A stretch of DNA of 64,000 bases, taken from the NCBI RefSeq assembly GCF_029338395.1, contig NZ_CP119809.1, positions 1,798,001-1,862,000 of the forward strand, in the 5' to 3' direction. Shown here piece by piece: positions 29,359 to 33,695 of this stretch. A program made the position numbers and the translations under genes. The DNA comes from Halorussus caseinilyticus (GTDB lineage Archaea; Halobacteriota; Halobacteria; Halobacteriales; Haladaptataceae). Position 1 is the first letter of the stretch, and the number at the start of each line of letters is the position of its first letter. The notes beneath the pieces are model-generated. The model saw only the letters and a list, made by a program, of their open reading frames with translations. It was not told the origin of the DNA and made no database searches.

Positions 29359-29502
29359 GCGTGTCGTCCGACCGTAGGTGTGGAACCGGGAAATAGGTTC
29401 GTCTACGCTCCGGGAGGCGACTTTCGGGACGGTCGGAGAGCGACGGGTTCCGACACCGACGAGATAGCGAAACCTTTCCCGCGGCGTTCCGTGGGTAGCA
29501 GT

Positions 29503-29928
29503 ATGAGCTACGAACTCCGCGACCACACCGCAGACGTTGCGGTGGAAGCGACCGGTCGGAACCTCGGGTCGGTCTTCGCGGCCGCGGCAGACGGAATGGC
29601 CGCCGCGATGTGCGAGGACGTGCCCGAGTCCGGCGACCGGTTCGAACTCGACGTTCGGGCCGAAAGCCGCGAGGCACTGCTGTTCGACTACTTGGACGAA
29701 CTCATCTACGAGCGAGACGTGCGGGCGGTCCTGCCCGTCGAGAACGAGGCCGAAGTTCGGCGAGAGGACGGCGAGGACGGAACCGGCGAGTGGGCGGTGT
29801 CGGGGAGCGCCCGCGGCGTTCCACTCGGCGAGATTTCGGCCCGCGAAATCAAGGCCGTCACTTACTCCGAGATGGAACTGGCCGAAACCGACGAGGGATG
29901 GCGGGCTTACGTCGTGTTGGACGTGTAA
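29503..29928 (+). CDS. Archease
   Basis: 141 residues from the ATG at 29503. It contains DHTADVAVEATGRNL near the start, LFDYLDELIYERD, and the GVPLGEISAREIKAVTYSEMEL motif with Asp and Glu metal ligands. Archease speeds up multi-turnover RNA ligation by RtcB by promoting its guanylylation. The rtcB gene follows 0.8 kb downstream on the same strand, so a functional pair is present even though another gene intervenes. Confidence 0.95.
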   Translation: MSYELRDHTADVAVEATGRNLGSVFAAAADGMAAAMCEDVPESGDRFELDVRAESREALLFDYLDELIYERDVRAVLPVENEAEVRREDGEDGTGEWAVSGSARGVPLGEISAREIKAVTYSEMELAETDEGWRAYVVLDV

Positions 29929-29931
29929 AAA

Positions 29932-30627
29932 TTAATTTATTTGTTCAATTTGCAGATTAGTCCGTAACCGTTCACCGACCAATGTGTCGTCGTTGTCTTG
30001 ATTCCAGGCGGTGATTGTTACGGAATCGCCTTTGGAGAGACGAGCAATCGTCGATACCGGAACTGATTCCCAGTCTCCCTTCGGCGTCGTGGACCATCTC
30101 GCTTCATAATCCTCCCCGTTTATTTCTATTATAGTCACTACGTGGTCCCCACCGAGAGAGTTGTACGTGACGCTCGTCTTGATTTTGTACGTTCCTGCCG
30201 TCGGAGCGACGAATTCATTTGCTGTCGTATCGAATGCATTTAGCTCGTCCCACTCAACCGTGTCGAACTGAACTATCTCGTGCGTACTCTTAGCTATAGA
30301 CTGGTCGGACGAGAGATATACGGAAGTAGTACTATGCGTCGTCTCCGAAGCAGAACTACCAATCCCCGTTTCTATCCATTCACTACCGTTGTGCTTGTAG
30401 ATTTTCCCCGTGTCCTCGGCGAAAAACAACCAACCGCGAGAGCCGAGTCCTGATTTCTCGGCATCGTCACCCACGTATGCATCACGGAACTCCATGAGAT
30501 TGTGCGCAGATGCTGTTCCGCTGAATGCTGTTACGCCCGCACTTCCGGCGAGTGCCGCGCCGAGCGCCATGAGACTGCGACGCGAGAGCTTCGTTACATC
30601 GGAGTTGTCGTGGTTTCCTTTGACCAT
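29932..30627 (-). CDS. Tat-exported C1q/tail-fibre-like protein
   Basis: 231 residues. A twin-arginine signal (SRRSLMALGAALAG, 15-28) ends in AHN. Residues 63-90 read GWLFFAEDTGKIYKHNGSEW, a pattern seen in viral tail-fibre and structural proteins; residues 130-231 form a C1q/TNF-like beta-jelly-roll (AFDTTANEFVAPTAGTYKIK). It is AT-rich compared with all neighbours and lies alone, in reverse, between archease and rtcB, overlapping neither. It therefore looks like a recently acquired surface protein, perhaps of viral origin (inference). Confidence 0.7.
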   Translation of the reverse strand: MVKGNHDNSDVTKLSRRSLMALGAALAGSAGVTAFSGTASAHNLMEFRDAYVGDDAEKSGLGSRGWLFFAEDTGKIYKHNGSEWIETGIGSSASETTHSTTSVYLSSDQSIAKSTHEIVQFDTVEWDELNAFDTTANEFVAPTAGTYKIKTSVTYNSLGGDHVVTIIEINGEDYEARWSTTPKGDWESVPVSTIARLSKGDSVTITAWNQDNDDTLVGERLRTNLQIEQIN

Positions 30628-30734: not shown

Positions 30735-33695
30735 ATGGAGCAAGACGAATGGCGAAACGTATTCCGGTCGGACGACGAACCAACGAGTATGACCGACGAC
30801 GACGCGAGAGATACCTACGAGGCGGGCGACGTTACGCTCCAGAAGGTCCGTGAGTACGTCTGGGAGATTCCACAAGAAGGAGACATGCGCGCTCCGGCGC
30901 GCGTGCTGGCGAGCGAGACCCTGCTCGACCAAATCGCCGACGACAAGACGCTCGAACAGTTGCGGAACTCGACGCACCTGCCGGGCGTCCGGAAGTACAA
31001 CGTCTGCATGCCCGACGGCCATCAGGGGTACGGGTTCCCGGTCGGCGGCGTGGCCGGAATCGACGCCGAGGAAGGCTGTATCTCCCCCGGAGCGGTCGGA
31101 TACGACATCAATTGCCTTTCGGGAGATTCGGAAGTCCTCTTACAAGACGGACGACGACGGGAAATTGCTGAACTCGCCAGTCGTTTCGAGAACGAAAGCG
31201 CCGTCGTTGCGGGTGAAGAGCTAACCGAATCCCAGATTCGCCTGTACACAGAGACCGACGACGAGACCGTTTACGAAGTTGAGACGGAAACGGGTGAGAC
31301 TGTCGAGGCGACCGCGGACCATCCCTTTTCCACTCCGGAAGGTATGAAAGAGCTTAGTGAGCTTTCGGAGGGCGACGAGATTTACACCCATCCTTTCGAG
31401 GGGGTTGCAGACGAAGACCCGGACGAGTTCGTCCTTCTCGACGAATCGGACTTCGAAGAAGAGAGCCAGCAACTCGTCCGCGTCTTGAAAGAGCGTGACG
31501 TTCTTCCCTTGAAGTCAACTGACTCCGAACTCGCGCCGCTTCTGAAATTAGTCGGCTTCCATACCGGTGACGGTGCTATCGGCCACGGTGGTCAGACGTG
31601 GTTCTACGGCGAACCAGCGGACCTCCGAGCGATTCAGGATGACATCCGACGGGTTGGATTCAAGCCGTCGAAAATCTACTCCCGTGAGCGAGACCACGAC
31701 ATCGACGGGACGGAGTTCACTCGAACGGAACACAGCGTTCGGTCCACTTCAAAAGCATTCCAGCGTCTTCTGGTGAAACTCGGCGCTCCCGAGGGGCGAA
31801 AAGTCGAGTCAGACTTTACTATCCCATCGTACCTCGACCGTCTCACGAACTGGCAACGCGCACTTTATCTCTCGGCATTCTTCGGTGCAGAGATGAGTGC
31901 CCCGTCAGCAATGGCCGACAAGAACCTCTACTGCCCGAAGGTTTCGCAGAACCGAACGGTAGAGAACGCCGAAGCGGGGCGACGATTCCTCGAAAAGATG
32001 GCCGACTACCTTGGTGAACTCGGAATTGAAACGAACGAAATCGAGTCGTTCGATACCGACTCGAACCGTAACCACGAGATGCGACGGTTCCGTCTCGGTA
32101 TTACGAACGACTCACAGAACCTCGTTCGGTTCTTCACGACTGTCGGCTACCGATACAACCGAGAAAAGCGGACGAAAGCAGTCTTAGCAACGCAGTATCT
32201 CAAGACGAAAGAGAAAGCCATCGAAAAACGCGAGCGCATCGCCGAGAAAGCAGTCGTACTTGCGGATGGAGGTACAGCGGTTTCTGAAATCAAGACTCAG
32301 TACGACATTAACGGTCGCTTCATCGAGCGAAGCGTCTGGAGTGGTCGAGACGGACGACCACGACCACCCGCGGACTTCCCCAGTTTTGAGGAGTTCTGCG
32401 AAGCAACGGAGGTTCAAGAGAACCTAACGGTCAAAACGACTATCGACTCGATTTCCGAAGCGGGTTCCGAGACTGTCTACGACATTGGTGTCGAACACGA
32501 TGCACACAACTTCGTCGCAAATCAGTTCGTCGTGTCTAATTGCGGCGTCAGGATGATGAAGACGAACCTCTCCTACGAGGACGTGCGGGGCCGCGAGGAG
32601 GAACTCGTGGACGCCCTCTTTGCGAACGTCCCGTCGGGTCTCGGCGGTGGCGGCATCGTGGAGGGCGACATCGACGCCGTGGACGCCATCCTCGACCGGG
32701 GGATGGAGTGGGCGCTCGAAGAAGGGTGGGCCGTCGAAGAAGACTTGGCCCACTGCGAGGACGAGGGCGTGCGCCACGATTCGAATCCCGCGAAGGTCTC
32801 CCAGAAGGCCAAGGACCGCGGGAAGAACCAAATCGGCAGTCTCGGGTCTGGCAACCACTTCCTCGAAGTTCAGCGCGTGACCGACACGTATCTGGACGAC
32901 GTGGCCGACGCCTACGGACTCGAAGAGGACCAAATCGTCGTCCTCATCCACTGCGGGAGTCGCGGGTTGGGCCATCAGGTGTGTACCGACTACCTGCGGG
33001 ACATCGAGAAGGCCCACGCGGGCCTGCTGAACCAGTTGCCCGACAAGGAACTCGCCGCCGCGCCCGCGGGGAGCCACCTCGCCGAGGACTACTACGACGC
33101 GATGTGCGCCTGCATCAACTTCGCGTGGGTGAACCGCCAACTCATCATGCACCGCGTCCGGCAGGTGTTCGAGAAGGTGTTCGGCCGCGACTGGGAGTCG
33201 ATGGAAATGGACCTGCTCTACGACGTGGCCCACAACATCGCCAAGAAGGAGACCCACACCGTGGAAGACGGCGAAGAGAGGGAGTTGTACGTCCACCGGA
33301 AGGGGGCGACTCGCGCGTTCCCCGCGGGCCACGAGGAAGTTCCCGGCGCGTACCTCGACGTGGGTCAGCCGATCATCATTCCGGGGAGCATGGGCGCGGG
33401 AAGCTACGTTCTCCGGGGCGGCGAGGAGTCGATGGACCTCACCTTCGGTTCGACGGCCCACGGCGCTGGCCGGACGATGAGTCGCACGCAGGCCAAGAAG
33501 GACTACTGGGGCGGCGACGTGCAGGACGAACTCGAACAGGAACACATCTACGTCAAGGCCCAGAGCGGCGCGACGGTCGCCGAGGAAGCGCCGGGCGTCT
33601 ACAAGGACGTGGACGAGGTGGTTCGGGTCTCAGACGCGCTGGGAATCGGCGACAAGGTGGCCCGGACGTTCCCGGTGTGCAACATCAAGGGGTGA
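30735..33695 (+). CDS. rtcB: RNA-splicing ligase RtcB, intein-containing
   Basis: 986 codons, of which 510 are extein. Extein N: KYNVCMPDGHQGYGFPVGGVA, then GYDIN (ends at residue 126). Extein C: CGVRMMK (from residue 603), the LGSGNHFLEV motif, HCGSRGLGHQV, AHNIAKKE, and FGSTAHGAGR with the guanylylated His. RtcB joins 2',3'-cyclic phosphate and 5'-OH RNA ends in tRNA splicing and repair, using Mn and GTP. The insertion lies exactly between Asn126 and the metal-binding Cys. In the Pyrococcus horikoshii numbering known from structural work this is Cys98, two residues after Asp95-Ile-Asn. The enzyme is dead unless the intein splices. Confidence 0.95.
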   Translation: MEQDEWRNVFRSDDEPTSMTDDDARDTYEAGDVTLQKVREYVWEIPQEGDMRAPARVLASETLLDQIADDKTLEQLRNSTHLPGVRKYNVCMPDGHQGYGFPVGGVAGIDAEEGCISPGAVGYDINCLSGDSEVLLQDGRRREIAELASRFENESAVVAGEELTESQIRLYTETDDETVYEVETETGETVEATADHPFSTPEGMKELSELSEGDEIYTHPFEGVADEDPDEFVLLDESDFEEESQQLVRVLKERDVLPLKSTDSELAPLLKLVGFHTGDGAIGHGGQTWFYGEPADLRAIQDDIRRVGFKPSKIYSRERDHDIDGTEFTRTEHSVRSTSKAFQRLLVKLGAPEGRKVESDFTIPSYLDRLTNWQRALYLSAFFGAEMSAPSAMADKNLYCPKVSQNRTVENAEAGRRFLEKMADYLGELGIETNEIESFDTDSNRNHEMRRFRLGITNDSQNLVRFFTTVGYRYNREKRTKAVLATQYLKTKEKAIEKRERIAEKAVVLADGGTAVSEIKTQYDINGRFIERSVWSGRDGRPRPPADFPSFEEFCEATEVQENLTVKTTIDSISEAGSETVYDIGVEHDAHNFVANQFVVSNCGVRMMKTNLSYEDVRGREEELVDALFANVPSGLGGGGIVEGDIDAVDAILDRGMEWALEEGWAVEEDLAHCEDEGVRHDSNPAKVSQKAKDRGKNQIGSLGSGNHFLEVQRVTDTYLDDVADAYGLEEDQIVVLIHCGSRGLGHQVCTDYLRDIEKAHAGLLNQLPDKELAAAPAGSHLAEDYYDAMCACINFAWVNRQLIMHRVRQVFEKVFGRDWESMEMDLLYDVAHNIAKKETHTVEDGEERELYVHRKGATRAFPAGHEEVPGAYLDVGQPIIIPGSMGAGSYVLRGGEESMDLTFGSTAHGAGRTMSRTQAKKDYWGGDVQDELEQEHIYVKAQSGATVAEEAPGVYKDVDEVVRVSDALGIGDKVARTFPVCNIKG
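31113..32540 (+). other. Intein with LAGLIDADG endonuclease inside RtcB
   Basis: 476 residues, starting with Cys (CLSGDSEVLLQDGRR). Block B is TADHPFSTPEG; a homing-endonuclease domain has LLKLVGFHTGDGAIG and ALYLSAFFGAEMSA as its two dodecapeptides with acidic residues retained; block F is IGVEHDAHNF; it ends VVSN. The +1 residue is Cys. The usual penultimate His is Ser, so Asn cyclisation must rely on other residues. Codon third positions contain more A/T than in the exteins, which fits horizontal homing. Confidence 0.93.

Follow-up and report, generated by a model that had tools for sequence, protein, structure and literature searches.

The single rtcB gene of Halorussus caseinilyticus, located in the window analyzed here (the whole stretch of 64,000 nucleotides from contig NZ_CP119809.1), appears to carry, directly before the codon of its catalytic cysteine, a full-length class-1 intein with a LAGLIDADG homing endonuclease, which would be both self-splicing and homing, and was probably gained horizontally, a reading to which a probability of roughly 0.9 can be given. 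This reading is based on the anatomy of the element, its conservation, fold prediction and distribution, the conflict between the intein and host trees, and purifying selection. The element is an ordinary selfish intein, and not a demonstrated switch.

Anatomy, splice junction and predicted fold

The open reading frame at 30735–33695 of the forward strand encodes 986 amino acids, and corresponds to an RtcB (PF01139, E 1.9e-159) with an intein inside it, the latter matching the profiles PF14890 (E 6e-14), TIGR01445 (the intein N-terminus, at residue 127), and TIGR01443 (the intein C-terminus, ending at residue 603). The original prediction of a 476-residue intein directly before the catalytic cysteine is borne out by these domain matches and by the spliced alignment with PH1602, the RtcB of Pyrococcus horikoshii (Table 1). 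The interval contains exactly 476 codons, which begin with CLSGD, end with VVSN, and are followed by Cys, with the insertion point lying between the Asn and Cys of GYDIN/CGVR. The excision of these codons joins GYDIN to CGVR, producing an RtcB of 510 residues, which aligns with PH1602/RtcB from end to end (E 6.6e-159). In this alignment, the +1 Cys falls on Cys98, so that, as had been proposed, a single cysteine would act as both the splicing nucleophile and the active-site residue of RtcB, and the positions of His203, His234, His329, and His404 are kept, as counted from the printed alignment. These five positions are, going by the Pyrococcus structures, the metal and guanylation residues of the enzyme, and the joined protein has the family assignment and the catalytic Cys and His residues of an archaeal RtcB ligase. 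The flanking residues, Asn and the +1 Cys, had also been named correctly, and the number given to the former, Asn126, depends on the ATG at 30735. A comparison with the congeners suggests that RtcB may start at Met19 (30789) instead, which would lower this number by 18, and leave the DNA coordinates unaffected.

Table 1. Features of the archease–rtcB region of the window.
Feature	Position	Strand	Evidence
Archease gene (RtcB partner), upstream of rtcB	29380..29928	+	PF01951, E 7.5e-33
N-extein of RtcB, to ...GAVGYDIN	30735..31112	+	PF01139; phmmer alignment to PH1602
Intein, 476 residues, Cys1 ... Ser475-Asn476	31113..32540	+	PF14890, TIGR01445, TIGR01443; boundaries from spliced alignment and 44 relatives
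N-terminal splicing (HINT) half, intein residues 1-125, with Cys1 and block B T67-A-D-H70	31113..31487	+	Conservation; AlphaFold2 model; Foldseek to DnaB mini-inteins
Predicted LAGLIDADG homing endonuclease region, intein residues ~126-424, including helical extension ~350-409	31488..32384	+	Motifs; Foldseek; dN/dS
C-terminal splicing half, block F (V-Y-D457 ... H465) and block G (VVS475-N476)	32385..32540	+	Conservation; AlphaFold2 model; comparison with solved intein structures
C-extein of RtcB, from the +1 Cys (Pyrococcus Cys98) to the stop codon	32541..33695	+	PF01139, residues 582-986; PH1602 alignment

The intein has the residues of class 1, that is, C1, T67-A-D-H70, D457, H465, N476, and the +1 Cys, with C1, H70, D457, H465, and N476 being invariant in all 44 haloarchaeal RtcB inteins. 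The usual penultimate histidine is replaced by Ser475, as the original prediction had pointed out, although this residue should not be read as a sign of a defect or a switch. A penultimate His is usual in class-1 inteins, and not universal. The serine is likewise invariant (44/44), and a terminal Ser-Asn is also present in the solved structures of DnaE-type inteins, which led to the rejection of Ser475 as a lesion.

Following the translation of the precursor, Cys1 would attack the N-terminal junction, the +1 Cys of RtcB itself would take over the N-extein, and Asn476 would cyclize, releasing the intein and joining GYDIN to CGVR in an active enzyme. With the catalytic Cys held in the splice junction, the precursor would probably be inactive, and RtcB unable to ligate before splicing, as the original prediction soundly reasoned. 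No second copy of rtcB that might serve as a backup was found in this genome, and as this is the only RtcB of the cell, any need for RtcB during growth would require splicing to proceed under those conditions. Once free, the intein would be expected to cleave intein-less rtcB alleles at the conserved site, and to be copied into them by repair.

The AlphaFold2 model of the intein, for which 24 members of the family were used as input, has a mean pLDDT of 89.7. The best matches in a Foldseek search of the PDB were, in order, the TliVMA intein, PI-PfuI, PhoVMA, and PI-SceI, all of them inteins with homing endonucleases, followed by mini-inteins, and I-Tsp061I was also returned. The whole-chain TM-scores are low (about 0.3), which indicates that the relative placement of the domains is not shared with these matches, and the splicing half superposes on the DnaB and RecA mini-inteins at ~1.3–2 Å over ~95 columns. 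In the model, then, the HINT splicing fold is seen together with a complete predicted endonuclease fold. This splicing fold and the C-terminal block are shared by the solved structures of DnaE-type (Npu) and DnaB mini-inteins, which have no endonuclease, and the DnaE inteins are split in nature. Both endonuclease motifs are kept, as had been predicted (GFHTGDG and FFGAEMS, in intein residues 144–157 and 250–263), providing the two motif helices with catalytic acids that are typical of a LAGLIDADG homing endonuclease. These acids, D153 and E260, are invariant in the 44 haloarchaeal copies. The helical extension at ~350–409 may have a role in DNA binding.

Distribution and known relatives

Of the 391 halobacterial genomes sampled, 42, or about one in ten, have this intein at the same site (41 complete copies and one cut by the end of a contig), while two additional matches (G318 and G346) are weak (29%), and are taken to be other inteins. 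The site is empty in 218 of the 391 genomes according to a strict pattern and in 297 according to a broader one, including all eight of the sampled congeners. Among the genomes that were neither filled nor empty by pattern, 22 were inspected closely, together with a few controls. Some of these have variants of the site, such as GYDVN or CGIR, and ten (G002, G014, G016, G041, G051, G055, G059, G075, G083, and G124; loci L131–L140) have no match to an archaeal-type RtcB, and contain the bacterial type only. Those of the bacterial-type sequences that were aligned read GVDVGCG or GVDIGCG at this position, which lacks the intein target, and they would represent, on this sequence evidence, a replacement of the ligase that also removes the homing site. 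The essentiality of RtcB, which had been claimed for many archaea, is thus not general in the haloarchaea for the archaeal-type enzyme. Both types are found in G036 and G037. In one genome (G039, locus L039), the intein follows GFDIS in place of GFDIN, Ser being a rare substitute for Asn at the -1 position, and in G171 the intein-bearing copy (L129, C23) is accompanied by another RtcB, which has no intein and is divided between two frames (L141, C1).

Outside the halobacteria, three genomes of the phylum (L088, L089, and L091) carry a homologous intein at the same junction, with 34% identity, in which the penultimate residue is His in two cases and Ser in the other. Insertion at the Asn/Cys junction of GYDIN/CGVR by a homologous intein is found, then, in the 44 haloarchaeal copies and in these three. 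The sharing of the site with distant archaea, as originally proposed, is confirmed both by these inteins from other families of the phylum and by the Pyrococcus RtcB, in which Cys98 is the splice junction (PMC4150793).

RtcB inteins at this site are already known. The intein of P. horikoshii RtcB has the same host protein and splice junction, and the NCBIfam model NF038162 (intein-containing RtcB) describes the same insertion site and a homologous full-length intein (E 1.3e-106 for the intein alone). The record of Natrinema thermotolerans, of the Natrialbaceae (CP031304, annotated as an “intein-containing tRNA-splicing ligase RtcB”), has the same allele, with a full-length intein of 65% identity on a secondary replicon of 987 kb. 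The RtcB of the window scores 1053.6 bits against NF038162, that is, below the curated cut-off of 1150, as do the other haloarchaeal copies scored, while L088 and L089, of family f15, exceed this cut-off. In comparison with these two members, the intein described here has a penultimate Ser, rather than His, and GAEM, rather than GADG, in the second endonuclease motif. A survey of haloarchaeal inteins recorded 24 alleles in 13 genes, with RtcB being absent from the list (Soucy et al. 2014, PMC4071816), and the inteins of that survey likewise form a patchy, horizontally moving class. Among the full-text matches for RtcB and intein, no title or abstract has the haloarchaeal RtcB inteins as its topic. 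The present findings thus add a widespread haloarchaeal allele that is absent from the 2014 survey, and present the penultimate Ser as stably kept throughout a family that looks homing-competent. Matched intein-bearing and intein-free congeners are also available, in which homing, and the burden that an intein places on an RNA ligase, could be measured. The general picture of what inteins do is unchanged.

At least six other genes of the same genome bear inteins (L153, L154, L155, L156, L157, and L158), their hosts being MCM, a B12-dependent ribonucleotide reductase (two inteins), RNA polymerase A'', the DNA polymerase II large subunit, an XPB-like helicase, and DNA polymerase B, although some of these names were read from the sequence, rather than from a family search. 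MCM, the polymerases, the helicase, and the ribonucleotide reductase are kinds of host that are also listed by Soucy et al. (2014).

Origin, homing and possible regulation

The host RtcB groups with the empty congeners (99% SH-aLRT), and is 93% identical to one of them (L051), whereas the nearest intein (L009) has only 68% identity, leaving the intein of the window with no close kin. This contrast favors horizontal gain from an unsampled donor, and the intein was probably acquired by this lineage after its split from the sampled congeners. Vertical inheritance from an ancestor of the genus, followed by precise loss in every sampled congener, is an unlikely alternative. Intein loss is reported to occur in the haloarchaea (PMC10643990), the flanks of the insertion match those of the congeners up to the site, and the intein and extein distances are correlated across the family (Mantel r 0.62). 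However, the position of the host within a well-supported clade with empty congeners, together with the empty site in all eight of those sampled, would require several independent precise losses, and the intein and extein trees conflict elsewhere in the family, which was the outcome of a check proposed with the original prediction. The intein data reject the clade L040+L077–L080 (AU p 4e-6), a grouping that RtcB supports, and the converse, intein-supported clade is rejected by the extein data (p 0.001), with these p values being somewhat generous, given that the tested clades were chosen after seeing the trees. The correlation is itself consistent with a mixture of vertical descent and exchange among relatives, and much of the history of the family would follow either the hosts or exchange between close relatives. 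No donor of the intein was found among the sampled genomes, nor was any donor-like co-conversion tract from a sampled donor seen beside the insertion. A viral or plasmid vehicle was also considered, and rejected, given that no RtcB intein was found in the viral-contig collections or the phages, and that the only one found on plasmids was that of the Natrinema replicon. One large viral contig (L149, 6882–8777) encodes an intein that includes a LAGLIDADG-like domain, the host protein being unrelated and perhaps a cysteine protease, and L150 has the same short match. A record of a Halorubrum virus BJ1 mutant (AM491333.1, L152) contains an intein-free archaeal RtcB (72% identity) beside a small gene, V2, and a fragment of HMG-CoA reductase, which indicates that rtcB DNA from a host can find its way into a virus.

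The reading of this element as one that still homes must be weighed against decay and regulation. The second motif has Glu for Asp and Met for Gly relative to the GADG of the f15 relatives, as might be expected if the endonuclease were dead and the element were a domesticated or decaying intein, restricted to splicing. This is highly improbable, since every one of the 44 copies has GAEM, which also occurs in L091, no copy is truncated other than the one cut by the contig end, and the pairwise dN/dS values (eight pairs) are 0.06–0.15 for the endonuclease. The full-length copies have 465–480 residues, with no mini-inteins or internal stops among them. The dN/dS values are comparable with those of the splicing part (0.08–0.17), which argues for the continued use of the endonuclease, and such strong purifying selection suggests that homing is probably still active. 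The maintenance of the endonuclease, a mark of a homing element, also counts against the intein being a regulatory switch, in which salt, redox, or metal conditions would hold back splicing, and RtcB would become active only when needed. Conditional splicing is known in other inteins, including salt-dependent splicing in those of haloarchaea (Reitter 2016 and Ciragan 2016, both cited by PMC7765530), which may reflect only salt-dependent folding. In the present case, the +1 Cys is an active-site residue, RtcB is single-copy, and there is a Cys at position -12 of the N-extein. This last residue is, however, at least as common without the intein (29 of 30 intein-free RtcBs, against 36 of 44 intein-bearing ones), which led to the rejection of a redox partner evolved with the intein, and no intein-specific Cys partner was found among these 30 and 44 sequences. 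In addition, eight congeners do without the intein, the whole family shares the penultimate Ser, which other inteins have too, and no features specific to the carriers were found in support of a switch. The switch suggested by the original prediction is thus very doubtful, having no sequence support beyond what any intein offers. The fuller proposal, prompted by the double role of the cysteine, that splicing is gated by metal, redox, or salt, and activates the sole RtcB of the cell post-translationally in a stress response, is likewise very doubtful. The homing element at a conserved target, as first outlined, remains the preferred reading.

Genomic neighborhood of rtcB

The archease gene upstream of rtcB probably has its true start near 29503, given that the domain match begins at residue 44 of the frame. 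The order archease–rtcB is also found in Natrinema, where the archease lies directly upstream of, and adjacent to, rtcB. In the window, a gene encoding a C1q-like, secreted-looking protein lies between the two, on the reverse strand (29932–30627).
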